From: Thermococcus barossii
Lineage (GTDB): Archaea > Methanobacteriota_B > Thermococci > Thermococcales > Thermococcaceae
Reading direction: 5' to 3'
Assembly: GCF_002214465.1 (NCBI RefSeq)
Contig: NZ_CP015101.1
Location: forward strand, 1-64,000
Length of the DNA stretch: 64,000 nucleotides
Shown here: in pieces, positions 29,767 to 54,462 of the stretch
Numbering within the stretch: position 1 is the stretch's first letter
Layout: each line of letters begins with the position of its first letter
The notes under the pieces: model-generated
Database searches by the model: none
The model's input: only the letters and a program-made list of their open reading frames with translations
What the model was told of the DNA's origin: nothing
Made by a program: the position numbers and the translations under genes

Positions 29767-30042
29767 TTGGGGCATACCGTATATTACAGCATCAGAATCA
29801 AGGAGTGGGATGGATTCAAAAGCTTCATTGAACGAATTTGCAATGGGATTGGCTATGGCTTCGTGGATAACGGGGACTCCATTCTCCTAATACCGGAATG
29901 TCGTAACGTCGAGCCTCTTGAAATAAGAATGGAGGGGGAGGGGTTTGTAAAAACCAACCTGATTGAGCCCTGTCATTCGGTATATCTGCTCGTACTTCAC
30001 TCGGTTTCTTCCTTTGGCTCGGTTGAGCTGTGGGAGGACTGA
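29767..30042 (+). CDS. Conserved-looking hypothetical protein, 91 residues
   Basis: Not recognised. Preferred start is TTG 29767, three bases after GGTGA, giving MGHTVYYSIRIKEWD. A longer frame from 29713 includes the TATA-like ACTTTTTAAAATTTTAG and is unlikely. Visible features are a WDGFKSFIERICNGIGYGF segment and a conserved-looking C-terminus CHSVYLLVLHSVSSFGSVEL. Predicted alpha/beta, soluble, two or three cysteines, no helix long enough for a membrane. The end overlaps the opposing DUF2101 gene by 46 bases, a notable convergent overlap. Confidence 0.6.
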   Translation: MGHTVYYSIRIKEWDGFKSFIERICNGIGYGFVDNGDSILLIPECRNVEPLEIRMEGEGFVKTNLIEPCHSVYLLVLHSVSSFGSVELWED

Positions 30043-30752
30043 TTCTCGATATCGCTAAGGTAAACCTCTATAATCTTGAGCGGGACGGCTCCCTTCAGCT
30101 TTCTGTCCTCCACGATAAGCTTCACTACCCTGCCGACTTCCAAGTCTTCTACAGCATCGACCCAGTAGTGGCCCGGCTTGACGTTTGCCGCTATGTCGTC
30201 GTGGACGAAGACCTTAACGACTTCGCCTTTAATCTCCTCAACAACGCCGTAGGTGTAGTCCCTTCCGTATCTCTGCTTGAAGTACCACCTGAAGGCCATG
30301 ACTGCCACAAAGGCGATGAGAAGGTAGGCGTAGTAATAGTAGATGCTCGTTGCGATTCTCCGTACCACAGTATATCCTGTGAAAACAGCAAATGAAATCA
30401 GCGATATTGCATAGTAGAAGAACCTGTACGGTTCATGTTCAACAAAGAACTCCCTGTTCCTGACCAGGGTGTATCTAAGGTAAAGGAAGTAAACCACCGC
30501 AACTCCCACAAGCCACAGCGGACTGGCCCTGAGGAAGAGCAGGATGAGGTTCATAATAAGGTAAAGAAGAAAGGCAATCTGGAGCTTGAGACTGAGGTAC
30601 TCATGGGTCGTGAGTCTTTTTTTCACGAGCCTGCCCAGATATCTAAAGCTAGGGGGCTCTTCCGACGGTGTGGGGTTTATGAAACTAATGATGCCATGAA
30701 TCACCGAATCCACAGACTCGCCTATTCTGTAAAGGAAGTCTTCCACCGACAT
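29997..30752 (-). CDS. DUF2101 family membrane protein, last gene of the CetZ operon
   Basis: 251 residues, resembling DUF2101 proteins of Thermococcales; function unknown. Four or so membrane helices lie at about residues 57-75, 80-93, 113-128 and 138-155 (for example IAFLLYLIMNLILLFL and AYLLIAFVAVMAF). After them is a soluble beta domain (VVEEIKGEVVKVFVHDDI), which looks like a small OB or SH3-like barrel facing the cytoplasm. The N-terminus has SVEDFLYRIGESVDSVIHGI. It starts four bases after the 1116-residue surface protein, so it belongs to the same transcript. Confidence 0.7.
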   Translation of the reverse strand: MSVEDFLYRIGESVDSVIHGIISFINPTPSEEPPSFRYLGRLVKKRLTTHEYLSLKLQIAFLLYLIMNLILLFLRASPLWLVGVAVVYFLYLRYTLVRNREFFVEHEPYRFFYYAISLISFAVFTGYTVVRRIATSIYYYYAYLLIAFVAVMAFRWYFKQRYGRDYTYGVVEEIKGEVVKVFVHDDIAANVKPGHYWVDAVEDLEVGRVVKLIVEDRKLKGAVPLKIIEVYLSDIENQSSHSSTEPKEETE

Positions 30753-30756
30753 GATT

Positions 30757-33700
30757 TCACCTCTTGAGGAGGTCGTCTGCTCCGGTCGGCCCCAATATTG
30801 CAGTCGCGGTCTGGTTGTCCATAAAGAACGGGACCACTGTTAAATCCCCTGTTAGGACGCTTGTACCATAGGATATGCCCCAGACGCGATAGCCGGTAGT
30901 CTTTGCCATGCTTCCAAAGTAGTAGTTGAGGAAGTAGTAGTCAACGCTGCTCTGCCCCTCCTCTATAGAGATTCCAAAGTTGTTGAATATGTCGAAGAGC
31001 TTGCGGTCGTAGTCGGCGTTGGGGACCATGAAGCTTACGAGTCCTATCGGGTAGTACTCCCCGCCGTATTTCATTCCAAGTTCGTCCTGCATTTTCTTTG
31101 CCAGCTGGAAGTACTTGGCATGGTTTACCCTGCTGTTCTCAAGGCGCTCGAAGAACGACACGCCAGCATAGGTCCCGAAGTACTTCTGGTCTATTATGCA
31201 CGATATCAGCGGCTGGACGTCGTAGGCACGGGAGTTGTATCCACCTGTTGAAGGTGGAGCGTTCTCAACTCCAGTGGCGGTTATGGAGTCCGTGGTGTAA
31301 TAGGGCATCTCACCGATAACAATCCAGTCGAAGTATGCATCTGTCTGTCCATCGGTTACAATGCCAACCTTGGCGGGCGTCACGGCTTCTTTGTTCACAC
31401 TGGCTGTGGTGCTCCTGAAAGAACTGTCCACATCGGTGAACTCGAAATCTGTCCCACTCAGTCCGGGGTCGAACACGATTTGGTACCTATGATAGTCGTT
31501 CAGAACCGTCGGGTTGTCTGAGTCGATGCTGTTGCTCCAGTTTTCAAGTACGGCAAGTGTGTCTCCCCCGTGATCGCTGAAGCCGGGGTTATCATCGATG
31601 AACTCAACCTTCTCAGGGTACTGTGGCACGGTCACACTGTAGGTCAGATAGCTTTCGTCTAGGTACTTGCGTATTCTCATGTCGTCTATAGCGTAGTCGT
31701 GACCTCCAAAGATGTAAACGCGGGTAAAGGTGTTGTAGGTGTTATCCGAACGGGTGTAGCTTCCCATGAGGTTACCGTCCTCGTCGTACACCTCAACGTG
31801 GAGTGTTCCGTCTGTCTTGATTTCAAAGCGGACGAAGTACCAGTAGTTGATACCGTATGTTGAACCCGATGTTCTCTGAAGGTTTCCGCTGTATCCCGTT
31901 CTGACATCTATGCCAACGTATCCGTTATCCGGCCTGAACATGGCCCCGTAACCGTTACCATTGTTGTCTATCACGCCAACTCTGTCAAGTCTACCCCCGC
32001 TGGTGTTTATCCTGTAGTCCCAGTACTCGAGGATAATGCCCCTTCCGAGGGTTTTCCCTATAGGCCTGTATCCCCCGTTGGGGTCGTTGTTGAGGAGCTT
32101 ACTCATCGCGTAGTTTCCATCGTGGACATAAAGGGATGTGATGCTGAGGTTTCCGTTGCGATAATCGTCCCACAGCCCCCATTCGCTGGGGTTCTCAAAG
32201 TCTTCGAAGAACTCAAAGACCTCGCGTCCGTCTCCCCTCGTTAGGGTGCCGGTGTTGTACTCGATGTAAACCGTGGCAGTGTACTGGTAGGTTCCACCTG
32301 AGCTACCTAGGTAAGTGAGGTTCGTCTTCACCCAAACCCTTGCACCGGTGGAGTCCCATCTCTCTATCCAGAATGGAATCTCGCTCTGGAGGTTTTTGTC
32401 AGAGTAAACTTTAATCTCTGCCCTGTTTGTGACTGGGTCGGCGTTTATTCCACTCACGTTGGTGGCACTAAGGTCAATGGGTATCTGTATGTTCGTGTAG
32501 CTGTCAAGCTGGGGTCCGTCGTAGTTAACGACGACTTTCAGAACATTCTTTGTATAATTAAACTCGGTTTCAACTCCGCCATCGAAATCTTGGGCAGTAT
32601 CTCCAGGTTTCATTCGGAATCTCACAAAAAACTGCCCATTTATTGCGTTAACAGTCTGAAGGGCGAGCTTCTTTGTTCCGGCTGGAACCACTAGATGGCC
32701 ATCTCCATCAAGATATGCGTTGGAGAGGTTATTCCAGAGCACGGGGGTTAAGGTGGGATCATCGAAGGTGTCTATAAGCCAGAACAGGCTCTGCTTGTCA
32801 TATCCATCGGTAGCGTATGAGGAATCATCTGTGAAATAAACGGTGTAGTCGGTGCCGCTGGTTTTTATCCATATCCATGCGTAGGATGTTCCCCAGTACT
32901 CTATCCAGAATGGCACGGGGATGCAGGTGGTGTCGGATTTCTCGTATATAACCATCGATGCGGTACCGTCCGTATGGTATATGTTTGGGAACGTGGATGT
33001 TGGTATCTTCAGGAGCACGAGACTTCCGTCCGCGTAGCTGGGTATTGTGATGTTGACCCTCCACTTGTAGTTGTAGTTGCACCAATGGGTAGTTGCACTG
33101 ACGTTGCCGAACACCAGAACGCCTATGTCATCGTCACTGAAGACTTCCAGCGGTGAAATTGGAACACCGTTCAAAGTTGTGTTTACAATGACTGGGGAAG
33201 CTATAGTGGTAATATCTCCGCTACGCAGTACGTATCCATCGGCGCCATCACCGGGATATGCGTTGCCGTAGAAGATGTGACCAGAATCCCATGCCGTTGA
33301 GGAGTACTTTCCAAGGACATGATCCTCCTGACTAGTTCCGTTTCCGTAGAGGGCCTTGATTGGTCTGTCTATAAGCTCAGGAAATGTGTAGTTGCAGGGT
33401 TCTATGGAGCGGTAGTATCTGCCGTATGTAAGGGCTGAGAATAGAGGATCCTCAAGGTTTTCGATGGGTACTACTGAATAAATGTATTTTTCTCGCGGTA
33501 TTGGGCCACTATAAACTACCTTCCCAGAGACATCTGCGATTGTCACGTCCTTTATCTTTGCTTTTATAACTATTCTAAACGCATCTAGTGGAGCAACCGT
33601 TAGCTCGATGTTGCTCCTGAGGAAATTGCTCAGTTGGGATGTACTCATGGCCCTAATCTCGTCAAGTGTTTTGTTTGCTATTCTGAGTTCGTACCCCTGC

Positions 33701-34107
33701 CTCTCGAGCTCATGCGACATATTGCCGAGCCACCCAAGAACGGTTTGATCCTTCATGAGTCTCTCGGAATAGTTGCTGGGTATATTCCCGGATTGGCCAT
33801 ACAATATTAAATCCCGTATAGTGGCATTCGCCATGCCATTGGGGTCGTTGGGGTCTAAGAAATTTCTGGTGTTGGCGATGTAGTCAACTATCGTAACTAT
33901 GGCTCTTTTGCCGGATATTTCCAGCGTTCTCTGAAAGTCCATCTCAACATATGAGACTGTCCTGTAGGTTCTCTCAACCTGTGTCCTCTCGCTCTGGCTC
34001 ATTATTATCTGGGATGAAACGTCCTCATATGTCGCGAGGAGCAGCATCAGGGGTATGAGCAAGAGTATGACAGTTGAATTCATCAGGAATGCTCGCCGCT
34101 TTCTCAT
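30757..34107 (-). CDS. Giant anchored surface protein with DUF2341 and lectin-like domain
   Basis: 1116 residues. N-terminus MRKRRAFLMNSTVILLLIPL is a basic stretch plus one membrane helix; the rest should be extracellular and contains many N-glycosylation sequons. About residues 345-440 and 530-620 contain two DUF2341-like units, with the repeated pattern PFWIE-W-(T/S)-(A/G)-WV/IWIKT and YFTDDSS or YIEYNTG. Residues about 630-790 look like a concanavalin/LamG-type beta sandwich (FEDFENPSEWGLWDDY ... IFGGHDYAIDDMRIRKY). The C-terminal part is a separate globular domain. It overlaps the preceding gene by one base. The likely role is adhesin or filament tip; no catalytic motif is seen. Confidence 0.7.
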   Translation of the reverse strand: MRKRRAFLMNSTVILLLIPLMLLLATYEDVSSQIIMSQSERTQVERTYRTVSYVEMDFQRTLEISGKRAIVTIVDYIANTRNFLDPNDPNGMANATIRDLILYGQSGNIPSNYSERLMKDQTVLGWLGNMSHELERQGYELRIANKTLDEIRAMSTSQLSNFLRSNIELTVAPLDAFRIVIKAKIKDVTIADVSGKVVYSGPIPREKYIYSVVPIENLEDPLFSALTYGRYYRSIEPCNYTFPELIDRPIKALYGNGTSQEDHVLGKYSSTAWDSGHIFYGNAYPGDGADGYVLRSGDITTIASPVIVNTTLNGVPISPLEVFSDDDIGVLVFGNVSATTHWCNYNYKWRVNITIPSYADGSLVLLKIPTSTFPNIYHTDGTASMVIYEKSDTTCIPVPFWIEYWGTSYAWIWIKTSGTDYTVYFTDDSSYATDGYDKQSLFWLIDTFDDPTLTPVLWNNLSNAYLDGDGHLVVPAGTKKLALQTVNAINGQFFVRFRMKPGDTAQDFDGGVETEFNYTKNVLKVVVNYDGPQLDSYTNIQIPIDLSATNVSGINADPVTNRAEIKVYSDKNLQSEIPFWIERWDSTGARVWVKTNLTYLGSSGGTYQYTATVYIEYNTGTLTRGDGREVFEFFEDFENPSEWGLWDDYRNGNLSITSLYVHDGNYAMSKLLNNDPNGGYRPIGKTLGRGIILEYWDYRINTSGGRLDRVGVIDNNGNGYGAMFRPDNGYVGIDVRTGYSGNLQRTSGSTYGINYWYFVRFEIKTDGTLHVEVYDEDGNLMGSYTRSDNTYNTFTRVYIFGGHDYAIDDMRIRKYLDESYLTYSVTVPQYPEKVEFIDDNPGFSDHGGDTLAVLENWSNSIDSDNPTVLNDYHRYQIVFDPGLSGTDFEFTDVDSSFRSTTASVNKEAVTPAKVGIVTDGQTDAYFDWIVIGEMPYYTTDSITATGVENAPPSTGGYNSRAYDVQPLISCIIDQKYFGTYAGVSFFERLENSRVNHAKYFQLAKKMQDELGMKYGGEYYPIGLVSFMVPNADYDRKLFDIFNNFGISIEEGQSSVDYYFLNYYFGSMAKTTGYRVWGISYGTSVLTGDLTVVPFFMDNQTATAILGPTGADDLLKR

Positions 34108-36218
34108 CAGCTCTCCCTCCAGACTCTGAGTGTTATCGTGATCGGCCGGAATAGACCGGGTATGTTGCCCATGGAGACGAAGACTATGTTGACCGTCGGC
34201 GGTAGCTGAACCAGTATTGGATTGGCTTGGGTTCCGTCCCCACCTAGGTTGTTGAACAGTCTTATTATTGCGTCGTCAACGGCGTATCTATCCCGTCCGT
34301 TGAGGAGATCCTGCGCAGTAACGTCACAGTAGGGGGAGTCGCCTGCGGTGACGTAGTGGGGCAGATTATCCCCTGTCCAGTAATAGGTTATGTTGTAACC
34401 GGAACAACCTGGTCTCAGAAGCGCCGGAAAGACGTCGCCGTAGCCTGCAAACCCCTGAATAACATACGTAAGTTCACCGTGTCCGTTGAGGGGTTGTAGC
34501 TGATATCCATTGCCCAAGGTTATGGTAACGGTGTTCAGTCCATTGGAAATGGCATGGGGCAGTGGGTCGTATTTGTAATCAAAACTGTTGGCGGCATATC
34601 CAAACTGGGCAAAGTGGGTAAACGGATTTGATGGGTTGCAGCTGGAGTAACCGTTTCCGTTGTGACAGTAGAGATACGTCGGTGATATCATTGGGTTGTC
34701 TACCTGAAGCCTCTGGGATGGATTGCTTCCACTTGAATACAGCCATGGGAATTGGAACTTTACCCATAGTGGCTGGACTCCCTCCGGAACGTTAAAGTTT
34801 ATGTTGATATTGTGAGTCCATCCAGTGTTTGGCAGGGGTATAGGTTCAGTTATGTCTATCGTGTATGCGGTGAGGAGAATTCCGGTTGTATAATCTGCCT
34901 CAATGAACGATTCGTTCCCTATGAGGTGTATCCGGGGACTGTGATACCAGTTCCCTCCGGCATGAACAATCACAGTTGTCCACTTACCCGAGATCTGGTT
35001 GTAGTTATATCCGTTTGCGCTCAATGTGTTAGCTATGGTGGAATTGCTCCAGTAGCAGGTCTTTACCTGAGTCGTGGTGTTATACGAGCAGTATGTGGGT
35101 GGGATTGAAACCTCGTTCGTGAATACAAAACTCAGGGATATTGGCTCGGTAGCGCTTATGTTCCCAACCGCAACCTGAATGTTGAGAGCCTTCAGCGCAC
35201 CGGGGATTATAAGGAATTTCCAGTTTGTGATGGGGTAATTAGCGGTAACATCCTCAAAGTAGAATTTCTTGGGGAACTTGAGTGTTGACGGCACTGAAGT
35301 TCTGTATTTTATGCTTATGTACTGGGCACCATCCTCACCGCCATCATACCATTGTTTGTAAACCCTGACCTCGAAGACGTTGGTTTCCCCTGGATGGAAG
35401 TACTGTTTAAGCTCGGGATAATCTGAGTCCGTAAACAGTTGATTATAAGTCACATAGTCGGAGGTTATGTACTGTCCGTTCAAATACAGGTCATAGTATG
35501 AACCAACCCAGGCGGGTTCAACGAACCATTTTATCTCTTCTATCTGGGCATCTTTCGGAATGGCATCTGCTGGGACTATGTACTTGATGACGACAGCATC
35601 ATCAGGATAATTCGTTTCGGCATAGATATAACCCCCTCTTATTGTGTAAATGTTCTCCTTGCTTCCTAGCTTGTTGAGAAACGCTCTCGCCATGTAACCA
35701 CGCGGGGTCTGATTGAAGGCATATCCGCTCAGTATCAGCGTTGCCGGTGTCACATCCTGGGCGGCGGAATAGTTGGAACCAACCTTACGAAGGTAGGGAC
35801 TTGTGTAGTTGTTTATCATAAGTTCGTAATTGTAACCCCTAAGGGTGTTGTTGAGGAGGTACCCCATGATAATCTCCGCTTTGTGGGTCAGGTTTGCTCC
35901 TGGGAAGAGCGGAGCCGTCGCCCAGTAGGTGGCAACGATATCTATTGGGGACATGTCAGGTGTCACAAGGGTTGTGTTTATGACCGGGTCTGGACCGGTC
36001 ATCCACTCCTTTAGAGTCTCAGGAGGAACAAGTTCCCTTAACGGGAGCGTTCTGAACATGGTCAGCGTATCGTCCGCCACGTACTTTGACTGGGAGCGCA
36101 TGTACGTGGAGTACACCTGGGTGCTTGGATTGATCTGAGTTATACTCACCACGAACATTGTGACTAGGAGGAGGGCGAGTATTGCATCCAGGGTGAATAT
36201 GAATCCCCGTCTCTTCAT
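34107..36218 (-). CDS. Large anchored surface protein, pilin-like N-terminus, 703 residues
   Basis: Starts MKRRGFIFTLDAILALLLVT: a short basic stretch, a GFIFTLDAI segment resembling class III/type IV pilin signals, and one hydrophobic helix. The remainder is beta-rich, extracellular, with many Asn-X-Ser/Thr sites and several cysteines (for example TYCSYNT, KTCYWS, PGCSGY). No recognised domain. It overlaps both neighbours by one to four bases, so translation is coupled in the operon. A large minor-pilin or shaft/adaptor protein is a reasonable guess from the N-terminal anchor and context. Confidence 0.65.
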   Translation of the reverse strand: MKRRGFIFTLDAILALLLVTMFVVSITQINPSTQVYSTYMRSQSKYVADDTLTMFRTLPLRELVPPETLKEWMTGPDPVINTTLVTPDMSPIDIVATYWATAPLFPGANLTHKAEIIMGYLLNNTLRGYNYELMINNYTSPYLRKVGSNYSAAQDVTPATLILSGYAFNQTPRGYMARAFLNKLGSKENIYTIRGGYIYAETNYPDDAVVIKYIVPADAIPKDAQIEEIKWFVEPAWVGSYYDLYLNGQYITSDYVTYNQLFTDSDYPELKQYFHPGETNVFEVRVYKQWYDGGEDGAQYISIKYRTSVPSTLKFPKKFYFEDVTANYPITNWKFLIIPGALKALNIQVAVGNISATEPISLSFVFTNEVSIPPTYCSYNTTTQVKTCYWSNSTIANTLSANGYNYNQISGKWTTVIVHAGGNWYHSPRIHLIGNESFIEADYTTGILLTAYTIDITEPIPLPNTGWTHNININFNVPEGVQPLWVKFQFPWLYSSGSNPSQRLQVDNPMISPTYLYCHNGNGYSSCNPSNPFTHFAQFGYAANSFDYKYDPLPHAISNGLNTVTITLGNGYQLQPLNGHGELTYVIQGFAGYGDVFPALLRPGCSGYNITYYWTGDNLPHYVTAGDSPYCDVTAQDLLNGRDRYAVDDAIIRLFNNLGGDGTQANPILVQLPPTVNIVFVSMGNIPGLFRPITITLRVWRES

Positions 36219-37702
36219 GAGTCATCCCACACCCACAGTTTTAATACTGCCAGACTAGCCTGCGGCTTCATTATTGTATTCATTCCGTTCAGGTCAGATA
36301 TGATGGCAGTATTTATGTTGTCCATCTCATACGCCCACACGTAGATATCAAGGCTCTCTCCGGGCTGTATTTGGGTTAGGAACTCTTTCCAAGGGACTAT
36401 CACATAAGAGGGATTATCTGATGAGTACGACTTGAGGTACGACTTGCCATTGATGGTCTGGTTTATCATGACCCTGATGTCTGGGGTCGTGGGAGTCTTG
36501 TACGCTGCTAGGACGGAATACCCTGAGATGTTGCTTCCCCTCATCCAGGCGACCAGTACCATATATCCGGTATCATTGAACGATATCTTTAGGGCCATGT
36601 AGTCCGGGATTGGAGTGTATATCGTCCCAACATAGAGTTCCGCTGGCAGTGTACCTGGGGTAACTTTGTAGCTACCGTTGTAAATCATCTTTGTCATGGG
36701 TATTCTCCTCTCACTGTACGTTACCCAGGGGGAACGGTTCATGGATGCAGTTATGACCGAGGAGTCTGTCACGAAGCTACCGTTTATCATGGTGATGTTG
36801 TAGTCCGCATTGACCACTTTAGTGGCGTAAACGTACTTTATGGTGAGATTTGTGGCGGAAACACCGCCTCCCTGACCCCACCAGACAGTTCCAGTCCATG
36901 TGGTCCATACCTGCTGTCCATTGCGGTGGTACGGAATCCAGAGTGAGTATGTTCCATCGGCCAGCTGGTTCCATCCGATGAGGAGGTATCCCGTCTCAAC
37001 CTCTATATGAACAACCGCACCAGCGGGCACGTTGTAATTCACGGGGCCGCCCGGGTTTCCGGGGCCGACGAGGTCCAGTCTGACGCTTCCATCCTCAGCA
37101 AGTTTAAAGACAAAGCTTTCACCGGCGGTTACGTTGATGATGTTCTGTACACTTCCAACTCCGCTTAAATCACTCCTGACAGGGTTTATCCACTCGGCAT
37201 GGAGGCCATTGCCGTAGGCATAACCCGTGAGAGGGGTGATTGAAAGGTGTCCTCCCGATGGGATGTCCACTGATCCATCAATCTGAGGAGGTATGACAGT
37301 GACGTTGCCTTCGACATCAACCTTCGTGAGGTAGAACCCCAGTGTGAAGTCCTTCCCGTCGCTTATGTTCGCTAGGGCCGTCCTTACCCGCTGATCATCG
37401 GCCGCGACGGCGTTGTTCAACGCCTCTATTTTGGCATAATCTATGGTGGTTGGGTACTGGCTGTTTTCCAGTCCAATGAATCCGAGAGTGCTTGGGCTTT
37501 CCTGCCAGTTCTCTGGGGTTCCGGGGTTCTTCACCAGTATGTCCAGCATGTTGTCGCCTATGTTGGCCCTCTCGTACCAGCCCAGTACGGTGGTTATTTC
37601 CCCTTTCAGGGCGTTGGACGTCGTGGTAACCGTGCCAAGCAGGAGTATGATTATCACCATGGACAGCATTGCATCGAGTGAAAGCAACTGACCACGCCTC
37701 AT
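36215..37702 (-). CDS. Large anchored surface protein with pilin-like N-terminus, 495 residues
   Basis: N-terminus MRRGQLLSLDAMLSMVIIIL fits the class III signal pattern (basic residues, G|Q, then SL-D/E and a hydrophobic helix), where the prepilin peptidase cuts before Gln. The helix is followed by a long extracellular beta-rich region rich in Thr, Gly, Trp and sequons; LTGYAYGNGLHAEW and YLLIGWNQLADGTYSLWIPYH suggest a jelly-roll-like sandwich. ATGA overlaps join it to both neighbours. Function unknown. Confidence 0.65.
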   Translation of the reverse strand: MRRGQLLSLDAMLSMVIIILLLGTVTTTSNALKGEITTVLGWYERANIGDNMLDILVKNPGTPENWQESPSTLGFIGLENSQYPTTIDYAKIEALNNAVAADDQRVRTALANISDGKDFTLGFYLTKVDVEGNVTVIPPQIDGSVDIPSGGHLSITPLTGYAYGNGLHAEWINPVRSDLSGVGSVQNIINVTAGESFVFKLAEDGSVRLDLVGPGNPGGPVNYNVPAGAVVHIEVETGYLLIGWNQLADGTYSLWIPYHRNGQQVWTTWTGTVWWGQGGGVSATNLTIKYVYATKVVNADYNITMINGSFVTDSSVITASMNRSPWVTYSERRIPMTKMIYNGSYKVTPGTLPAELYVGTIYTPIPDYMALKISFNDTGYMVLVAWMRGSNISGYSVLAAYKTPTTPDIRVMINQTINGKSYLKSYSSDNPSYVIVPWKEFLTQIQPGESLDIYVWAYEMDNINTAIISDLNGMNTIMKPQASLAVLKLWVWDDS

Positions 37703-38172
37703 CTTCTCACCACATCAACGTTTATCTCAATCTCTTTTCCCCGGAGGTACAGCTTTCCACTCTCTCTAACGACGTTGGTTTTGGAGACCAGGTCGTCCTC
37801 TATGTACTGCTTTATGTTGGCCTCTACGGTGGCTTCAGGAAGCCCTGCTCCTGCATAGGTTATGGTGACGTTGATCTGCATTTTGCCGTTTACATCAGCA
37901 CTGCGAACGCCGGCGAGCTGAAAGGCCCTGTACGTGTAGTTGCTGGCCGTTATTATAGCGTTGAGAGGGGAATACATACTGTCATTGATGACAACCCCTG
38001 TGTTCAGGTAGGCACACGCGTCGGAAGCCGAAGTACGGACGTAGGATACCGCCGACATTGCCGTGTTCTCGTCCAAATAGGCGGGAGTAACCACTAGGAC
38101 ACCGGCCAGGATTATTGCCAGGATGAACAGGACCTCTATGGCACTCTGACCTCTACGGGGAGAGGACGACAT
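37699..38172 (-). CDS. Class III signal (pilin-like) protein, 157 residues
   Basis: MSSSPRRGQSAIEVLFILAI: cleavage before Gln (G|QSAIE) with the conserved Glu at +5, followed by a hydrophobic helix (residues 13-30). The ectodomain is small, with SDACAYLNTG and a strand-rich C-terminus. Size and signal are those of archaeal type IV pilin-like subunits. It overlaps the preceding gene by 20 bases and the next by four. Confidence 0.75.
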   Translation of the reverse strand: MSSSPRRGQSAIEVLFILAIILAGVLVVTPAYLDENTAMSAVSYVRTSASDACAYLNTGVVINDSMYSPLNAIITASNYTYRAFQLAGVRSADVNGKMQINVTITYAGAGLPEATVEANIKQYIEDDLVSKTNVVRESGKLYLRGKEIEINVDVVRR

Positions 38173-38593
38173 CGAGCCTCCCCTCCGTTTCGTTGTACGT
38201 CGCCACTATGCCGAAGTCTCCCTTCGTGTCAGTAAGCGTTACCGAGCTGTTTTCATATATTGGAACCGGGCTCCTCTGGACGACGGTGTAGCCCCTTTCC
38301 CCTAAACTCGCGTTGACGACGATGCTATCCGGGGTAACGAGGCTAACCGTGACTCTATCCCCAGAGCTCAGCTTTATTGGAAGTTCCTTCCTTACCGTGA
38401 ACCCATCCCCCGCCGCGTAAACCTTCACCACGGAGTCCCTGATGTCCACCGAAAATGCCTTCAGCTTTGCGATGGTGTCAAAGGTCTCGGAATGGGCCCT
38501 CTCGCTGTCCGCAATGTAGACTAGGTTGAGCATTGTAATTGTTATCAGGGTCACCGCAAATAGGAAGTCAAGGCTTATCTGTCCCCGTTTCAT
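38153..38593 (-). CDS. Class III signal (pilin-like) protein, 146 residues
   Basis: MKRGQISLDFLFAVTLITIT is a textbook class III signal (G|QISLDF), then a helix and a small beta-rich ectodomain (FTVRKELPIKL, GDRVTVSLVTPDSIVV). It starts two bases after the preceding gene. Expected to be processed by an EppA/FlaK-type peptidase encoded elsewhere. Confidence 0.78.
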   Translation of the reverse strand: MKRGQISLDFLFAVTLITITMLNLVYIADSERAHSETFDTIAKLKAFSVDIRDSVVKVYAAGDGFTVRKELPIKLSSGDRVTVSLVTPDSIVVNASLGERGYTVVQRSPVPIYENSSVTLTDTKGDFGIVATYNETEGRLDVVLSP

Positions 38594-38595
38594 CT

Positions 38596-39228
38596 TTATC
38601 CACCGGGGTTTATGTTTATGTGGAGCTCACCGGTAGTTGAGTCAAAGGCCCATGAGTTTGGATTATCTGGATTCCACTCGACGACTATCTCCAGCGTTGC
38701 CGGGAGCGTTGCGGGATCAATGCTCAGACCGTAGACCGTTGATGAGCCGAAGGTGAGGCTTCCGGACGGTGCCCATACCGATGAGTTGGTGTACAGAACC
38801 GCCTGGTACATCCCTCTGCTCCAGAAGACGTTCTTATCGCCCCCTGTTAGAACGGCGGTTACGTTGGTTCCGGTGACCGTGATATAGGTTCCGTTGCCTT
38901 CAGTGCTGTAGTTTCCGTAGGTTATGAACAGGGAGGCATTGTTGATGTTCAGCCCTTTCCGGAGCATTTCGGGGTCACGCAGGTACGTCAGTCTCACGTA
39001 GGTGGTTGACTTGGCTCCGGGCCCCTGGGCGTACACCTGTGATATAGTGTTGGAGATGGCGTTGGCTAGGTTTTTCTCCTCAAGGCTTATCTGGATTCGA
39101 AGGGTCTCGGTTGATGTTGAGCCCTCTCTGAACGTTATGTTGTTTACGGAGTACAGCAGGAGTATGAGCATCATTCCAAAGATTAACATGAACTCAAGTG
39201 AAACCTGACCACGCTTTTTTATCAGCAT
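38596..39228 (-). CDS. Class III signal (pilin-like) protein, 210 residues
   Basis: MLIKKRGQVSLEFMLIFGMM carries the canonical QxSxEF class III motif directly before the membrane helix. The ectodomain has about eight sequons and beta-strand patterns (YITVTGTNVTAVLTGG, LEIVVEWNPDN) and ends ININPGG. It is 38 bases after the DUF membrane gene, the largest internal gap of the operon; no obvious promoter of its own. Confidence 0.78.
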   Translation of the reverse strand: MLIKKRGQVSLEFMLIFGMMLILLLYSVNNITFREGSTSTETLRIQISLEEKNLANAISNTISQVYAQGPGAKSTTYVRLTYLRDPEMLRKGLNINNASLFITYGNYSTEGNGTYITVTGTNVTAVLTGGDKNVFWSRGMYQAVLYTNSSVWAPSGSLTFGSSTVYGLSIDPATLPATLEIVVEWNPDNPNSWAFDSTTGELHININPGG

Positions 39229-39266
39229 ATTTCTCCCCTCAGTATGGTATATCTCCGAACATCTAT

Positions 39267-39896
39267 TTAATCGTTACTCTCCGATTTTCCGGCGTTTACA
39301 ACGGCAAAAAGGCCGGTTCCGACCCGTTTGGTCTCAACGCCAAAATAATCCCCGCTGAAAATTTTGAACTTGTACCTCTCCGGTTGAAGGGAGTGCTTCT
39401 CTATCAGCTCGGCCAGCTCGTCGATGAAAAACTGCGTCAGCTCGTAGTATATCAAATCAAGCTTCTCGCGGGTGGAATCCCGAACCAGGAGAACCGCCGG
39501 CAGTATTGCAAGCCCGACTATGAGGTACGGTTGGCCGGTGAGGAGAGATGCAACCGCCGTCGCTCCCACTACACCCCCTATAACGGCGTACAGGCCCTTC
39601 TCCCTGTTCTTGGCCTCTTTAATCTCCTTGACCTTTCCCTCCCAGATGTCGAGCAGTGCCGGGTTGTAGAAATCAAAGGCAGTGTGCCGCTTCCCCTTGG
39701 CTATCCTCTCCCGGATGAGGTCGTCCCAGTCGTCCTTGTAGTAGATGACCTCGCCGTGGAGCTTTGCCCTCGCGGCATCGAGGGAGGAGATTATCCTGAT
39801 GATGTCTTCGGCGCTCTCGTGGGCGATGTGAGCGTAGACTTCCTTCTCGTCGAGGTCGAGGGCCACTTCCACCGAGTCCTTTATCGGCTCAGCCAT
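39267..39896 (-). CDS. Two-helix membrane protein coupled to cetZ
   Basis: Not recognised. 209 residues. A charged N-terminal half (VEVALDLDEKEVYAHIAHES, KLHGEVIYYKDDWDDLIRER) is followed by a hairpin of two membrane helices (GLYAVIGGVVGATAVASLL and YLIVGLAILPAVLLV) and a cytoplasmic-looking C-terminal region. The start overlaps the cetZ stop by eight bases. The coupling suggests it could recruit the tubulin homologue to the membrane, but this is inference. Confidence 0.6.
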   Translation of the reverse strand: MAEPIKDSVEVALDLDEKEVYAHIAHESAEDIIRIISSLDAARAKLHGEVIYYKDDWDDLIRERIAKGKRHTAFDFYNPALLDIWEGKVKEIKEAKNREKGLYAVIGGVVGATAVASLLTGQPYLIVGLAILPAVLLVRDSTREKLDLIYYELTQFFIDELAELIEKHSLQPERYKFKIFSGDYFGVETKRVGTGLFAVVNAGKSESND

Positions 39897-41058
39897 CCTT
39901 CTCCCTCCGGAGTTTCTTGCTTATGCCCTCTATATCGGGATAATCCCCGTCGAGGATTCCCTTCAGCTCGTTTCCGCCCTTGGCGTAAACGTCGTCAAAG
40001 TCGGGCAGACCGCTCAGGAGCTCCTTCTTCTTGCTCTCCGCTTCCTCCTTTGCCTCCATGAAGGACTGGGCGTACCTCTTGGCGGTGAGTATTATGTCCT
40101 CGATGCTCCTGCTCTCGTAGATGCCGCTGAGAAGCGTAACAACCTCCACCTCCCTCTCCCGCGGGTCAGGATAGAAACCCCGGAATATCTGCTTGCCCCT
40201 GATTTTGTTGGTCAGGTAGTTGAGAGCCTCAAAGATGTCCGCCGCCTTGAGTATCTCCGGCGGGCCGTGAATCGCCACCAGCCCGTAAAGGGCCGATTCA
40301 ATGTTCGCCTCAAGGTACAGCCCCTCGCTCTCAAAGGACTTGATGATGAGCCTTGAGAGGCTTTTGACCTTGTTTGCATCGGCCTTGGCATAGCCAACCG
40401 TCGCGAAGCTCCCGAAGGCCTTGAGAACGAACTTCAGGTCGCTCGCATCGAGGGTCTGCTCCCCCGGAACATCAACGAGGGCCAAAAGCGAGGCTATCCT
40501 CTCGACTATCGTGTAGTTAATCCTCTCGTAGGCCCTGCTTATGTCGTCAGAACCTTCCTTGAGCTTGTTGTTGTCTATGGCTATTATGGAGTCCGCTATC
40601 TTGGAGAGCTTGTCTATCGTTATCGCCGCGTTAATTGTGGGCCTTATCCCCTCCTCCTTGAGGGGAAGAGCGCCGATTGCAACCACAAGGGAGTCGGGAT
40701 ACTCCTCCTTGAGCGCCTCGGCCAGGACTGGCGTTCCCCCTGCCCCGGTTCCGCCTCCAAAGCCGAAGGTGAGGAAGAAGATGTCCACGTCCTCGTAGCC
40801 GATTATTGAACCTATCTTGCGCATGACGAGGGGCAAATCGCGCTTCATGGCCTCCCTGCCAAGTATCGGGTTCGCGTTGACTCCCTTGCCGCCGGTCAGA
40901 CTCTCGCCTATGAGTATCCTGCGCTCCTGTGGAACGTGCTTGAGGTACTCCAGGTCGCCCCTAGAAGTATTTATGGCCAGAGCCTCAAAATCAACGAGAG
41001 AAAAGAGGTCGGCTATCTTGGTTCCGCACTGGCCGACCCCTATGATTAGAGCCCTCAC
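39889..41058 (-). CDS. cetZ: CetZ-family tubulin/FtsZ homologue
   Basis: GTP-binding cytoskeletal protein of the archaeal CetZ group, 389 residues. GVGQCGTKIAD lies at residues 7-16 and the tubulin signature FGFGGGTGAGG at 98-108; LPLKEEGIRPTINAAITIDKL and IDNNKL follow the CetZ pattern, and LDASDLKFVL corresponds to the catalytic T7 loop (an Asp pair, with Thr in place of the usual Asn). GTG start at 41058, seven bases after the toroid gene. CetZ proteins control cell shape and motility in haloarchaea. Here the operon context is entirely cell-surface proteins. Confidence 0.88.
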   Translation of the reverse strand: MRALIIGVGQCGTKIADLFSLVDFEALAINTSRGDLEYLKHVPQERRILIGESLTGGKGVNANPILGREAMKRDLPLVMRKIGSIIGYEDVDIFFLTFGFGGGTGAGGTPVLAEALKEEYPDSLVVAIGALPLKEEGIRPTINAAITIDKLSKIADSIIAIDNNKLKEGSDDISRAYERINYTIVERIASLLALVDVPGEQTLDASDLKFVLKAFGSFATVGYAKADANKVKSLSRLIIKSFESEGLYLEANIESALYGLVAIHGPPEILKAADIFEALNYLTNKIRGKQIFRGFYPDPREREVEVVTLLSGIYESRSIEDIILTAKRYAQSFMEAKEEAESKKKELLSGLPDFDDVYAKGGNELKGILDGDYPDIEGISKKLRREKDG

Positions 41059-41065
41059 CCCTTGA

Positions 41066-43288
41066 TCACCCCACGACTATTACCCTCACCTTGCCGTTCT
41101 CGTTGAGGAGGACCATCGCCTCTCCCCTAATGTACCTTATGAATCCTGTTGTAAAGACTTCCTTGGCAATTTCGGCGTTTTCCTGTCCGTAGAATACGAA
41201 CAGGACGACTCCCTTGGGGGTCTTGCCCGGAATGAGAACGACTGCCTTGTCCACAGGAACCGTGACGTTTCCGACGGTGACGGTTTCGTCTGTAAGGTGG
41301 AACTTCAGGTAGGGGTTATACGGTCTCACGAAGTACTCCCCGTAGTGGGCCAGGACTATGTAGCTACCCTCGCCTATGCTGGTTGTGTTGAGCGCTATGA
41401 AGCCACCACTGAAGAGGTCGTTGAGAATGGCTATTGTCTCGTTTACGGTGACGGCGTCCATGTGGGGTGCTATTATCCCGAACACATCGCTGTCAAGGGA
41501 AGCCCGTACGTCGTAGAGGCTCACCGGTGGAACGTACTGGAAGCGGGAGAGATAACCCACTGTGCTGGCGATTTCTATTGTTTTGTTGTCTATTGCACCT
41601 GAGTCTCTGGCGTTCATTACGAACTCAAGCGTTTCGTTGGTGTAGTTGTACCCGTAACCAATCAAGAGGTCTGTAGCCCTGACGGTGAGTTCAACGGTTG
41701 GCGTTCCTGGGAACTCCCTGTTCTTTTCCCAGACGTAGTATGTCTTCCAGTACGGCCAGCCACCCTCTATCCTCTGGTCAATGAGCCATTCTAAGTGAGG
41801 CTGGAGCTCTTCCTGGGAGGCTATCCCATCCAGGGCCTCCAGAACGGTTATTGTGGTCAGGACGTCCGGCTTGAGCATGTATGAGTAGTACTTCGTCGTC
41901 ACGTGGGTTCCCCATCCACCGTTGGTTATACTCAGAAGCCATTCCTTGGCCTTCTGGATCAGGGAATCGTTGGCTGGAACTCCAAGCTCACGTAGAGCCT
42001 TGATGGCCAGGGCTGTTTCGTAGGGTTGCGGACCAAGAACGGTGTTGCCCCAGAGGCCGTAGTCGAGCTGGACACTGCGTATCAGCTCTTCAGCCTGAGT
42101 CTTCTCTTCGGCGGTCAGATTGTTGTACAGGAGGAGTGTCTTTAGTGCGTAGTAGTAGCCAACGGACATCCTGCGATTCTGCTTCATCCAAACAGCGTCC
42201 CTCTCGAAGGCCTCCCTCACCCATGAGAGGGCCTTTTCAATGCTCTCCTTCTCGGGATAGCATGCCTGGATACTCACCAGTGCATAGTAAGTGGCTTTCT
42301 CATCGGAGGGCTCGTTGAGTCCAAGACCCCACCCTCCATCTGGGTTCTGTAGGTTCTTCAGCTCCCGACAGGGCATCTCATAGGGGTTCTTCACCCCCTT
42401 CGCAGGTGGAAGTTCGAACGATGTCGAGAAGGCCATCAGTGCGTAGGAGGTTGTGGCTATAAGTTCCGTTGAGGAGAACAGGTCTGGGGTGTTCATCCAG
42501 TACACGAGGTCGTTCGTGCTCTTGCTGTACGATTCCAGCTTGATAAGTATTCTCGCCGTGTCAAAGTCTATGGGGGTGTGGAGTACAAGGGCGTACGTTA
42601 GCATGGCGCGTTCCTTCATCTTGAGATTCTCGTCGTTGAGGAGGATTCCCTTGACGCTTTCAATGGTCTCGTTGGATACTGGATAGCCGGTACTGTGGTA
42701 CGCTATGAGCTTTAGGGCGAGGACCTCGTACTGGGATATCTCGCAGGTGGTTGTGTTCTCCACGTATTTTATCGCGTCCCTAACAACCTTGCTGTTGTAG
42801 TTGTATCCGTTCTCTCCAAGGGCCCATATCGCCACGAGAGTTGGGTAGCATGAATTTGAGGTTCCCGGCACGTAACCCCATCCACCCTCGTTCTCCGCTG
42901 AGAGGAGGTATGAAACGCCCCGTTTAATGGCGTCCCTAATACCCTCAACCCGCAGTGCCCCAATGACTGGGTCTGCCTTTTCCAAGGCAATGACAGCGTA
43001 AGCCGTGTCGAGAACGTTGCTGGTCTCGCCGGGATACAGGCCCCAGCCGCCGTCGGGGTTCTGGTACTGGAGAAGCATCGTGATGAGACCCTCCAGGTCT
43101 GGGCTTATGTCCCACTCCATATCATTGCTGGCCTCGGATAGTGCCATTATAGCCAGGCTTATTTCCCTCGTCTGCTGGCTTGACTTGGCGGCATTTTTAA
43201 GAAACCTTGCGGAGCCGTCTATCGTTCCGGCGCTAACGGCTGGAATCAGCATGAGAACAATCATTACTAGAGCCAGAACCTTCTTCAT
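41066..43288 (-). CDS. Secreted alpha/alpha-toroid protein with prenyltransferase/squalene-cyclase repeats
   Basis: 740 residues from the ATG at 43288 (GGGGTGTAAGGTG before it). Signal peptide MKKVLALVMIVLMLIPAVSA with likely cleavage before GTIDG. Then at least six terpene-cyclase-type repeats are visible by their GGWG cores: NPDGGWGLYPGET, NEGGWGYVPGTS, NPDGGWGLGLNEP, DYGLWGNTVLG, TNGGWGTHVTT and EGGWPYWKTY. The acidic catalytic motif of true cyclases (DxDD) is not seen, so a structural or protease-inhibitor-like role is more likely than lipid cyclisation. The last 150 residues form a beta-rich domain. First gene of the operon. Confidence 0.75.
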   Translation of the reverse strand: MKKVLALVMIVLMLIPAVSAGTIDGSARFLKNAAKSSQQTREISLAIMALSEASNDMEWDISPDLEGLITMLLQYQNPDGGWGLYPGETSNVLDTAYAVIALEKADPVIGALRVEGIRDAIKRGVSYLLSAENEGGWGYVPGTSNSCYPTLVAIWALGENGYNYNSKVVRDAIKYVENTTTCEISQYEVLALKLIAYHSTGYPVSNETIESVKGILLNDENLKMKERAMLTYALVLHTPIDFDTARILIKLESYSKSTNDLVYWMNTPDLFSSTELIATTSYALMAFSTSFELPPAKGVKNPYEMPCRELKNLQNPDGGWGLGLNEPSDEKATYYALVSIQACYPEKESIEKALSWVREAFERDAVWMKQNRRMSVGYYYALKTLLLYNNLTAEEKTQAEELIRSVQLDYGLWGNTVLGPQPYETALAIKALRELGVPANDSLIQKAKEWLLSITNGGWGTHVTTKYYSYMLKPDVLTTITVLEALDGIASQEELQPHLEWLIDQRIEGGWPYWKTYYVWEKNREFPGTPTVELTVRATDLLIGYGYNYTNETLEFVMNARDSGAIDNKTIEIASTVGYLSRFQYVPPVSLYDVRASLDSDVFGIIAPHMDAVTVNETIAILNDLFSGGFIALNTTSIGEGSYIVLAHYGEYFVRPYNPYLKFHLTDETVTVGNVTVPVDKAVVLIPGKTPKGVVLFVFYGQENAEIAKEVFTTGFIRYIRGEAMVLLNENGKVRVIVVG

Positions 43289-43323
43289 CACCTTACACCC
43301 CTAAGCTCATTCTAAGCGGCCAG

Positions 43324-43341
43324 AATAAATAAACTTTTTCC
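43324..43341 (-). promoter_or_regulatory. Promoter of the toroid-CetZ-pilin operon
   Basis: On the minus strand GAAAAAGTTTATTTATT is an A/T-rich BRE/TATA-like element about 40 bases before the ATG at 43288. No other equally good promoter was seen between 43288 and 29997, consistent with one 13-kb transcript. Confidence 0.5.
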
Positions 43342-49041: not shown

Positions 49042-50064
49042 TCAGTTGGCCCCATCCCCTTCCTTGGGCAATGGCTTCCGGTACTCGTAGGATATTCCGT
49101 CGTCTATTATGGCAAAGACCTCATCCTCGCCGTCTATATAGTGGAGTATCGGCTTGTCCACAAGCTCGAAAGTTGTCTCCAAGTCATTGGGGGTCTTCAG
49201 GACGACCCTCTTCTGGACCGGCCCGGGGGCGCCCTTGACTATGTACGGCTTTATCTTGGCCAGCTCGTCCTTGGGCGGCCTCGCGGTGTAAACGTAGCCC
49301 ACCAGAGGTATCAGCATCAGTAGTGCCAGCAGTGTGGTCACGACTTTGGCGGTGTCCAGGTCGCTCTCCACTCCCAGAACGGTTGCACTCACTTCTTCCC
49401 GCGTCGTCTTTGTTAGTGTCCTCTTTGCACTCTTGGTGGTGTCTGTGAAGTAGTAAAGGCCCGCACCGCCGTCTCTTACGAGTTCCACTTCTTGGTCGAA
49501 GTTTTCGTTTATCGTCTTTCCTCCAACTTTCCCGGTTCCTTTAACGCTTGTCGTTATGATAACACGTCTGTTCAGCCTCTTCATTCCAAGTTCTTCCGCC
49601 ACGTTTGCACTCAGCTCGTTGAGTTTGTTCATATCTAGCGTGTATTCAACCGTGAATCCACCTTCTTGGAGTTTGCCCTTCTCATCAAAGAGGGTCTCCT
49701 CCCACATGATAACTTCGTCGCTACCCTTGTTGACGTAGTAGATAACCTTTCCCGTGACCTCGTAGGTGCCACTGCTCAGCGGAGGGCCTGAACGGTACGT
49801 GTACGTCAGCAGGAACCTGTCAACCAGGGATATCGGGTACTCGTCCCTGAAAACCATGTAGCCGTAGAGTTCGTTAGGCTTGAGATACGCGGCGTGCTTT
49901 AACTGACCCTCCTCCCTGAACGTTCCGAGCGTTTGAGTGTTCACCACGTACGGGCTTGCGCTCATGAGCTTCACGGAATAAAATCCAAACACAAGGAAGA
50001 GCACTAGGAATGCGCCCAGCACATCTTTCCTCCTAATGAATCTCGAAATATCTTCTTTCTTCAT
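49042..50064 (-). CDS. DUF5305-like membrane protein, last gene of the DUF1102/SipW cluster
   Basis: 340 residues. One membrane helix near the N-terminus (VLGAFLVLFLVFGFYSV) and a second near residues 243-262 (VVTTLLALLMLIPLVGYVY) flank an extracytoplasmic domain of about 200 residues rich in YTYR, YYVNKG and VTGKV strands. A cytoplasmic tail (TFELVDKPILHYIDGEDEVF) ends it. This layout matches DUF5305 proteins, which in archaea accompany SipW-like peptidases. Start overlaps the preceding stop (ATGA). Possible assembly platform or anchor for the fibres encoded upstream. Confidence 0.7.
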   Translation of the reverse strand: MKKEDISRFIRRKDVLGAFLVLFLVFGFYSVKLMSASPYVVNTQTLGTFREEGQLKHAAYLKPNELYGYMVFRDEYPISLVDRFLLTYTYRSGPPLSSGTYEVTGKVIYYVNKGSDEVIMWEETLFDEKGKLQEGGFTVEYTLDMNKLNELSANVAEELGMKRLNRRVIITTSVKGTGKVGGKTINENFDQEVELVRDGGAGLYYFTDTTKSAKRTLTKTTREEVSATVLGVESDLDTAKVVTTLLALLMLIPLVGYVYTARPPKDELAKIKPYIVKGAPGPVQKRVVLKTPNDLETTFELVDKPILHYIDGEDEVFAIIDDGISYEYRKPLPKEGDGAN

Positions 50065-51449
50065 CCTTCACATGCCTCCATGCCAGTGTCTGATTCAAAA
50101 CTTCTATTGTCGTTGTCTCCGAGGGCCTGAAGGTCGACGTCGGACGTGCGGCAACTGCAGCAGCCGCAACCTCCAATCTTGACGTATACATCGCATCCGT
50201 AGTATCCGCAATTATCAACGAGCGCCCTGCTGATGACCAGGGCTTTGCTTGAGTGGTGCCTGCCAGCCTCTATTCCATCAGTGTGTTCCCAGAGGTGCAT
50301 TACTGCGGTCTCTCCATGCTCCAGATGCACTACCCATCTGACCTCTGTGGTGCCGTCGGGCATCGGGGTCACGGATACCGTGCCGACTGTGGAGGAATAA
50401 CCGCTTACCGTGAAGTGCTCCCCCACGTACTGCCTTATCGTTAACGTCTTTTCGTCCCCACCGTTGACGATTCCGAGCACCACATGGTAATCGGCGGAGG
50501 TGTCAGGGGGTATCTTTGCTGGCCCCCAAACGTTCCTCCACATGCAGAAGTGGCAGTCGTTGCCATTGTCGCACTTTGCCGTGACGTTTATTCCGTTGCT
50601 CTTGATGTCGTATCCCACTATCTCGGCCCCTTCGTTCAGCGGGTATTCGCCGCATGAGGTGAACTCCTGCTTCCCTGCCGGGTTGAGCTTGGTGTGTATC
50701 GTCACGTCCAGATACGCGCTTCCATCGGCCGGGACCTCTACCTCCCATGTTATGTGGTGTGCCGCCCCGGTCTGTACGATGGAATACGTCCCTGCGCTTG
50801 GGACTATGGAGTCTATATCAAACTCTCCGGGAATGACGTCCTTTATCGTCAGGCTTCTTGCAACATCCGGGCTGGTTACCGTGATGCGGAAAGTCCACTG
50901 TTCGTAGGTGTGCGTTGGAACCTCAAGATCGCCGCTTATCAGTTCCTTCTCAATTGTTGGCCCGCCCCTAACGATTAGCTTTATGGAGCAGGTTTCTATG
51001 ACGGCATCGCCCCCATCCCAGCGGGCGTACATGGTGATGGGAATCACATACTCGCCGGGTACAACGTCGCTTACGCTCACGTGCCCGGAGAAGGTGTATT
51101 CCTCCTCTGATGCTATCATCCTCTCGGTTCCGTCTTCCGTTTCTATAAACATGTCAACGTTGCCCGGCAAGCTTGAATAATCCGGGTCGAGACGTATCCA
51201 GACATCTTTCAGCTCGTTCAGATAGTTCCTGACTGTCAGTGCATCAAAGTCGGTTTCGCTGTGGGGACTGACCTCTACAACTGCGGCGTAGCCGTCTTCG
51301 CAGTCAAAGCCAAGGTACTCATTTTCATGGGGCACAACTTGAACCTTAACTTCTCTCGACGCTTCAAAGCTTACAAAAGTTCCACTGGAGCCTACGAGAA
51401 TCAGCGATGCCAGTGCAAGTGTTACGATGATTGAGAATAGAGCCCTCAT
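50061..51449 (-). CDS. Large cysteine-rich secreted protein with DUF1102-like N-terminus
   Basis: 462 residues. Signal/anchor MRALFSIIVTLALASLILVG is followed by TFVSFEASREVKVQVVPHEN, the same pattern (F-x-E-A/x-R-x-V-x-V-x-V-V-P) as the DUF1102 proteins of this cluster. Two to three immunoglobulin-like beta units follow (TFRITVTSPDVARSL, DYHVVLGIVNGGDEKTLTIR). About 15 cysteines occur, many in pairs near the C-terminus (GGCGCCSCRTSD), so the fold is probably disulfide-stabilised. ATGA overlaps with both neighbours. It may be the tip or cross-linking subunit of a fibre whose shaft is the DUF1102 proteins. Confidence 0.65.
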   Translation of the reverse strand: MRALFSIIVTLALASLILVGSSGTFVSFEASREVKVQVVPHENEYLGFDCEDGYAAVVEVSPHSETDFDALTVRNYLNELKDVWIRLDPDYSSLPGNVDMFIETEDGTERMIASEEEYTFSGHVSVSDVVPGEYVIPITMYARWDGGDAVIETCSIKLIVRGGPTIEKELISGDLEVPTHTYEQWTFRITVTSPDVARSLTIKDVIPGEFDIDSIVPSAGTYSIVQTGAAHHITWEVEVPADGSAYLDVTIHTKLNPAGKQEFTSCGEYPLNEGAEIVGYDIKSNGINVTAKCDNGNDCHFCMWRNVWGPAKIPPDTSADYHVVLGIVNGGDEKTLTIRQYVGEHFTVSGYSSTVGTVSVTPMPDGTTEVRWVVHLEHGETAVMHLWEHTDGIEAGRHHSSKALVISRALVDNCGYYGCDVYVKIGGCGCCSCRTSDVDLQALGDNDNRSFESDTGMEACEG

Positions 51450-52510
51450 ATCCTAAACACCTCCGTAATTCCTCTTAGGGAGGAAGTCCTTTTTCTCCTG
51501 ATTCTAAGAACGTCTTCATCCCCGATGCCGGATAGATAGTACAAAGCTCCAAGAAATGCTGCTACTTCAGTTAGGATAGCTAGTAGTGGCATCATGGGGT
51601 GTATTGAATAAAGCGAGTCCATGAGTGAACTTGGAAGCAGTTTTGGATACGCGTTTACCCGCACTTTTGTGGTGTACATTGCTGTAGTTTGTGGTGTTAC
51701 GATGGTTACGATAAGGTTGTCCTCTTTATCCCTTGAGAGATAAAACTTCTCGCTGGATACCTCGGTGACTGGAGGCTCAGCGGAGATGTAATAGACCATG
51801 GGGTAGATGTTGTTGTTCCTTATCGTAACCTCTGTCTGAAATTCCTCCCCGGGTAGGTACCATCCTTCTCGACTTCCTCCCGCGGATGTCACTGAATACG
51901 CTATAGGTATCAACTCCCACGAAACGAAGATTGAGATCGCCACCATGAGAATGAGAAATACTGAGGTTAGCATGAAGAGTGTTCTAAACTTTATCGAGAT
52001 GAACTTGTTCTTTCTGATCCTTTTGGGTCTCTCACCGCTTCCAAAGGCTATTATGCCAACTACCACAAGAAGGGCCCCAAGAAACATCTTACCCCTGTCT
52101 GAGAGTCCATTGTCTATGTAGTTTCCGAGTTCTGGTATCTTGGGCACGTGTCCATTAACCGTGATAACTCTCCCGCCTATCTGCTCTCCTGCCACTGGGG
52201 GAACGTTATGAGTTTGCTGGTCGGTTGCAATGTTATTGTCACCTTTGGTCAGGTAGCCTTCTTCGGTTATTGCTACAATCCTGTGAACAACCCATGTCTT
52301 CCCTGCTCTGAAGACTACAATGTCGCCAACTTTGGGGTTTCTCACGAACGGATTAATGAAAAAAACGTCCCCCTTGTCTATTGTAGGGGCCATGCTCCCG
52401 GAGTATGCGTACGATATGAAGACTGGCCTGTCTAAGAGCGCTCCGAGCAGAGAACCTATAACGAGTACCGCGAGGAGTGCTAAGAGTGTGTATTCTATCA
52501 ATGATTTCAT
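51446..52510 (-). CDS. SipW-like type I signal peptidase with C-terminal extension
   Basis: Membrane peptidase of the archaeal/ER-type S26B group, 354 residues from ATG 52510 (ATGA overlap with the gene before). Helix at residues 6-24, catalytic Ser39 in YSGSMAPTIDKGD and His76 in WVVHRIVA; KGDNNIATD around 90-97 supplies the Asp residues. After the catalytic domain come a helix (MFLGALLVVVGIIAFG), another (LFMLTSVFLILMVAISIFV), a beta domain with EFQTEVTIRNNN, and a last helix. This extension is unlike housekeeping peptidases and suggests dedication to the secreted proteins of the cluster. Confidence 0.85.
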   Translation of the reverse strand: MKSLIEYTLLALLAVLVIGSLLGALLDRPVFISYAYSGSMAPTIDKGDVFFINPFVRNPKVGDIVVFRAGKTWVVHRIVAITEEGYLTKGDNNIATDQQTHNVPPVAGEQIGGRVITVNGHVPKIPELGNYIDNGLSDRGKMFLGALLVVVGIIAFGSGERPKRIRKNKFISIKFRTLFMLTSVFLILMVAISIFVSWELIPIAYSVTSAGGSREGWYLPGEEFQTEVTIRNNNIYPMVYYISAEPPVTEVSSEKFYLSRDKEDNLIVTIVTPQTTAMYTTKVRVNAYPKLLPSSLMDSLYSIHPMMPLLAILTEVAAFLGALYYLSGIGDEDVLRIRRKRTSSLRGITEVFRI

Positions 52511-53025: not shown

Positions 53026-53035
53026 TCTTTTTCCC

Positions 53036-53052
53036 CCTATAATAACTTAAAG
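53036..53052 (-). promoter_or_regulatory. Possible internal promoter before the third DUF1102 gene
   Basis: On the minus strand TTCTTTAAGTTATTATAGG follows the hairpin and could act as a TATA, though it lies only about 15-25 bases before the ATG at 53025, which would make the mRNA leaderless. Weak evidence. Confidence 0.25.
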
Positions 53053-53056
53053 AAGA

Positions 53057-53070
53057 GGAGCAAATGCTCC
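53057..53070 (-). terminator. Hairpin between DUF1102 genes two and three
   Basis: GGAGC-AAAT-GCTCC, a 5-bp GC-rich stem; on the minus strand it is followed by TCTTCTTTAAG. Position between the first two (probable major) subunits and the rest of the operon fits a partial terminator or RNA processing site that lowers expression of the distal genes. Confidence 0.45.
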
Positions 53071-53082
53071 AGAACTAAATAT

Positions 53083-53628: not shown

Positions 53629-53629
53629 T

Positions 53630-54280: not shown

Positions 54281-54340
54281 GGTACATTCCTCCATATTTT
54301 CCAAACCGACACCCTAGGCGAAGGCCATCATGGGGATGCC

Positions 54341-54409: not shown

Positions 54410-54462
54410 GGGGATAAAAAGGCCTAGTTTGATTAGAAGAGGCAAGTTGTAGCGTGATTAAG

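Follow-up and report, generated by a model that had tools for sequence, protein, structure and literature searches.

The closest described relatives of the locus analysed here are the clade 1 type IV pilus (T4P) loci of the Thermococci. Makarova, Koonin & Albers 2016, citing Szabo 2007, report an FtsZ-family GTPase (arCOG02202) and a squalene cyclase (arCOG03396) in these loci in most Thermococci, and in the part of their account that deals with them DUF2341 is a putative tip adhesin (PMC4858521). In each of the 15 Thermococcales cetZ regions that Brown & Duggin 2023 analysed, pilin arCOGs lie beside the gene and the order is conserved; these authors suggested that CetZ serves type IV systems as a scaffold (PMC9856176). 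The haloarchaeal CetZ2–pilB2/C2 regulon also places a CetZ beside a T4P locus, although that cluster includes the ATPase and PilC, which for the locus described here are encoded in trans (PMC9856176). The Epd pilus of Methanococcus maripaludis shares the DUF2341 protein, several minor pilins and EppA with the locus described here, whereas CetZ is absent from the genes listed for it (PMC10133366).

Our data show that the block at 43291 to 29997 on the minus strand of the window (the whole 64,000-nt stretch of Thermococcus barossii DNA analysed) is the standard Thermococcales CetZ/minor pilin/tip protein locus. The link between CetZ and pili is already published, and the initial annotation was wrong in stating that no system of this composition had been described (PMC4858521, PMC9856176). 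Shared with the clade 1 locus are class III minor pilins, DUF2341, arCOG02202, arCOG03396, the ATPase, two TadC proteins, EppA and small stand-alone major pilins; the difference is that the function of the two-helix membrane protein, the internal promoter and toroid loss are not discussed in the portion of that paper on these loci (PMC4858521). Compared with Brown & Duggin 2023 (PMC9856176), the present analysis extends to 40 loci and 94 genomes, locates the assembly genes genome-wide and adds an archaellum test. The 40 genomes of the locus comparison come from six genera and were chosen for good assembly rather than at random, and the family-level searches cover 94 genomes, in which absences depend on the search thresholds.

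Ten open reading frames run from 43291 to 29997, encoding proteins of 741, 389, 209, 210, 146, 157, 495, 703, 1116 and 251 residues, and at their junctions the extremes are an overlap of 20 nt and a gap of 38 nt. Both the order of the ten genes and the spacing of less than 40 bases given by the initial annotation hold, and its gene-by-gene readings were largely correct. All features described below lie on the minus strand. The second gene encodes CetZ (389 aa, 39889..41058), a single-copy GTPase of the tubulin/FtsZ superfamily that scores 107 bits against Tubulin (cut-off 33) and 57.6 bits against CetZ_C (cut-off 21.6), and reaches 120 against the ftsZ equivalog TIGR00065, below its cut-off of 295. 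Its best PDB matches are 4b46, 4b45 and 3zid. The GTP-binding GGGTGxG loop reads FGGGTGAGG and the T7-loop aspartates lie within TLDASDLK; G101-G105, D204 and D207 are invariant and A106 is nearly so.

The third gene encodes a two-helix membrane protein that we call TM2 (209 aa, 39267..39896). TM2 and CetZ occur in the same 89 genomes and are adjacent in all 89. Beyond CetZ-bearing genomes TM2 gave no confident match anywhere searched; outside the family the matches were very weak and C-terminal (E 2e-4 and 9e-4) and we disregarded them, and searches returned no Pfam or NCBIfam match above cut-off, no PDB sequence match and no plasmid match. The predicted structure, a moderate model (mean pLDDT 77.5), combines a helical part with a membrane hairpin and a small sheet at the C-terminus, and has no fold match in the PDB. 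Mean pairwise identity is 0.82 in residues 6–88, the predicted cytosolic part, compared to 0.86 in the CetZ core, 0.32 in the hairpin and 0.33-0.49 in the toroid and pilins. Because TM2 adjoins CetZ in 89/89 genomes, is found confidently nowhere else and has a predicted cytosolic part about as conserved as CetZ itself, it is the best candidate for a CetZ membrane adaptor that would bind CetZ directly; no such adaptor turned up in the literature searched.

The first gene encodes a secreted alpha/alpha-toroid protein with a squalene-cyclase fold (741 aa, 41066..43291), which combines a Sec-type N-terminus with cyclase-type alpha-toroid matches. Its predicted structure is a double alpha/alpha toroid (mean pLDDT 87) that resembles terpene cyclases and complement-type TED domains, the best Foldseek match being 3sqc (E 1.4e-6, local agreement only). 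The catalytic DxDD motif is absent from 20 of 22 toroid homologues, and in the remaining two its position is not shared; a catalytic cyclase role was rejected. Since the protein carries neither a conserved DxDD nor a conserved thioester motif, it is probably a non-catalytic binding protein. The toroid is missing from two genomes, L066 and L079, where twy1 abuts cetZ and the rest of the block is kept; it is therefore not an essential part of the locus.

Downstream of TM2 lie three small minor pilins, A (210 aa, KKRG|QVSLEF, 38596..39228), B (146 aa, KRG|QISLDF, a pattern kept in relatives, 38153..38593) and C (157 aa, RRG|QSAIEV, 37699..38172). In place of the G|QxSxE/D signal that the initial annotation assigned to all three, C has G|QSAIE, and the Pfam class III model is passed only by A (27.8 vs 23.7 bits). 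They are followed by two large minor pilins of 495 aa (RRG|QLLSLDA, signal site G|QLLSLD, 36215..37702) and 703 aa (RRG|FIFTLDA, signal site G|FIFTLD, 34107..36218); the pilin N-terminal patterns are kept in relatives. In one sister-family genome the ATPase and two TadC genes are directly followed by a remote homologue of the 495-aa pilin (hhalign probability 91.5, E 8.6e-7), and comparisons of the other pilins with sister-family pilin-like proteins by hhalign were not significant. The 1116-aa protein (30757..34107), a candidate tip adhesin, begins with a helix that resembles those of pilins, RRAFLMNSTVILLL, but lacks the acidic residue; it carries DUF2341, which is found in 31 of 38 homologues. 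The protein at this position varies from 367 to 1143 aa among the 40 loci: L066 and L079, which have no toroid, carry short forms (485 and 468 aa), and the short forms of L049, L070 and L073 (367-377 aa) occur together with a toroid. The last gene encodes a DUF2101 membrane protein (251 aa, 29997..30752; 265 bits), which was not found in one genome, L046; a DUF2101 search of the sister families gave no match, and neither did its control.

That the operon contains no pilus ATPase, platform protein or peptidase, as the initial annotation pointed out, is correct for the operon, but targeted searches locate all of them elsewhere on the same chromosome, and a new type of pilus without a motor was rejected. 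At 1692.4–1698.7 kb lie genes for DUF515, a secreted protein, the ATPase (T2SSE, 174.6 bits) and two TadC platform proteins (T2SSF, 86.8 and 59.6 bits). At 1204.2–1205.9 kb the genes for a 405-aa prepilin peptidase of the A24 type (Arc_PepC, 96.8 bits) and a 54-aa pilin adjoin each other, and near 589.5 kb there are genes for two small pilins. Among 14 controls, a search for DUF515 matched only in M. jannaschii. The clade 1 ATPase was found in 93 of the 94 family genomes, and CetZ, like this ATPase, occurs in nearly all members of the family. In sister families an ATPase is present (which does not imply that all belong to clade 1), and neither CetZ (at E 1e-35) nor TM2 was detected, with incompleteness of the metagenome-assembled genomes as a caveat. 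An ATPase without detected CetZ or TM2 indicates that pili of this kind can in general do without CetZ, and both proteins look like additions in this family, as far as their distribution tells. Many family genomes, not including the window's own, have the ATPase match split at 457-460 inside a longer open frame; this patchy insert (for example L008:7891-9759) is probably an intein, in agreement with the description of an intein as characteristic of arCOG01819 (PMC4390880). In one genome of genus g6, a single open frame of 1097 aa holds two additional ATPase-like copies arranged in tandem (G093:C29:1647-4646, 57-59% identity).

The block has the same order in 40/40 genomes of six genera, an association beyond chance. 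Its flanks are also conserved (guaA in 37/40, twy1 in 32/40), so that the conserved order is partly regional and not clean evidence, yet in genus g3, possibly Pyrococcus, where the upstream neighbour differs, the toroid is still the first gene of the block. In none of these genomes does CetZ lie apart from the genes of the block, so that the first of the two findings which the initial annotation held to refute its proposal did not arise. Its count of one visible promoter has to be revised. Upstream of the block, TTTATTTA (43326..43333) is the candidate TATA box of a promoter P1, 42 nt before the toroid start codon, and is also visible in several relatives. Besides it, a second box, TTAAATA (39264..39270), overlaps the TM2 stop codon and lies 42 nt before the first pilin, where it would serve as the TATA box of an internal promoter, P2. 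In 39/40 genomes, compared to about 1 expected by shuffling, the same heptamer precedes the first pilin by 38–52 nt, whereas its offset from the TM2 stop varies between -36 and +56; of its nine occurrences in the 64-kb window, six precede a gene start by 25–43 nt. As the box is fixed to the pilin start, there are probably two promoters, P1 for toroid–CetZ–TM2 and P2 for the pilins through DUF2101, with or without read-through, their activity being deduced from the motifs. A conserved internal promoter that probably splits the toroid, CetZ and TM2 from the pilin genes weakens the argument drawn from a single transcript.

Close to the CetZ block, the window holds a further minus-strand locus at 49042-54897 with three DUF1102 proteins (52507-53025, 53083-53628 and 53630-54304). 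Next to them are a signal-peptidase-like protein (51446-52528), proteins with DUF11 and DUF5305, and a winged-helix regulator of the DUF7344 type. We take it to resemble a TasA-type/bundling-pilus locus, presumably that of a second surface filament.

The reading we prefer, with a probability of about 0.55, is that the block joins two modules of the Thermococcales clade 1 T4P, in which a CetZ–TM2 patch would place the pilus bases or gather them into clusters. The first module, from P1, would supply the secreted toroid, CetZ and TM2, and the second, from P2, five class III minor pilins, the DUF2341 tip protein and DUF2101 as the initiation or tip complex of the filament. Construction of the filament itself would fall to components encoded in trans, namely the ATPase, both TadC proteins and DUF515 (1.69-1.70 Mb), the peptidase (1.204 Mb) and small major pilins (1.204 and 0.589 Mb). 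Through its conserved cytosolic domain TM2 would tether CetZ polymers to the membrane, where they would act as a scaffold for the pilus bases, while the toroid may be a dispensable, non-catalytic extracellular binder through which the filament is adapted to the S-layer or to a ligand. The role of CetZ, like every function proposed here, is one that we infer from the make-up of the locus and from comparison between genomes; a CetZ that would organise a surface filament with TM2 as the link fits the conservation pattern.

CetZ and TM2 could instead serve the envelope or cell shape in general and have nothing to do with the pilus, the two modules being neighbours by history with separate promoters, which we consider unlikely, though well worth weighing. 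The TTAAATA box locked to the pilin start, the conserved flanks and the sister families in which the ATPase was found and CetZ undetected all agree with it, as does the finding that Haloferax CetZ shapes cells (PMC9856176). It does not readily account for an order unbroken across six genera, even where the upstream neighbour has changed, or for haloarchaeal CetZ2, which independently adjoins the pilB2/C2 pilus locus in many species (PMC9856176).

A use of CetZ in the archaellum machinery, for example at the polar cap, is very improbable. Haloferax CetZ1 has been implicated in archaellum positioning (PMC11621097), and in P. furiosus a polar cap whose protein composition is unstated underlies the archaella (PMC5517150). 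In Thermococcales, CetZ does not track the archaellum: 12 genomes with a completeness of at least 90% gave no match to the archaellum ATPase, and 11 of these keep CetZ and TM2, six as single-contig assemblies, for which reason we rejected an archaellum role. The twelfth, G056, in which CetZ was not detected, is a 210-contig assembly. All 12 keep the pilus ATPase. An alternative that overlaps with the two-module reading and differs in the purpose of the pilus is that the filament is chiefly for DNA uptake and not adhesive, with CetZ placing the uptake site. In M. maripaludis, related pilus genes, including those for a DUF2341 protein and eppA, were found in a transformation-loss screen, and T. 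kodakarensis and P. furiosus are listed as competent (PMC10133366); universal retention does not separate the uses of a pilus, however, and we regard uptake as the chief purpose as rather doubtful.

Returning to the two-module reading, a more specific form of it is that TM2 is a dedicated CetZ adaptor with a role analogous to that of FtsZ anchors, recruiting T4P bases to CetZ polymers, such that a tubulin-superfamily scaffold would place Thermococcales pili; we put this forward tentatively. The invariant CetZ–TM2 pairing, the internal TTAAATA box, the independence of CetZ from the archaellum and the sister-family ATPases without CetZ do not appear in Brown & Duggin 2023 or in Makarova 2016, as far as the portions of these papers considered here extend. 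An invariant and uncharacterised TM2, together with a conserved second promoter, makes the CetZ–pilus link testable, and because the invariant CetZ–TM2 pair occurs in hosts that are genetically tractable, the published proposal of CetZ as a T4P scaffold can be tested directly.
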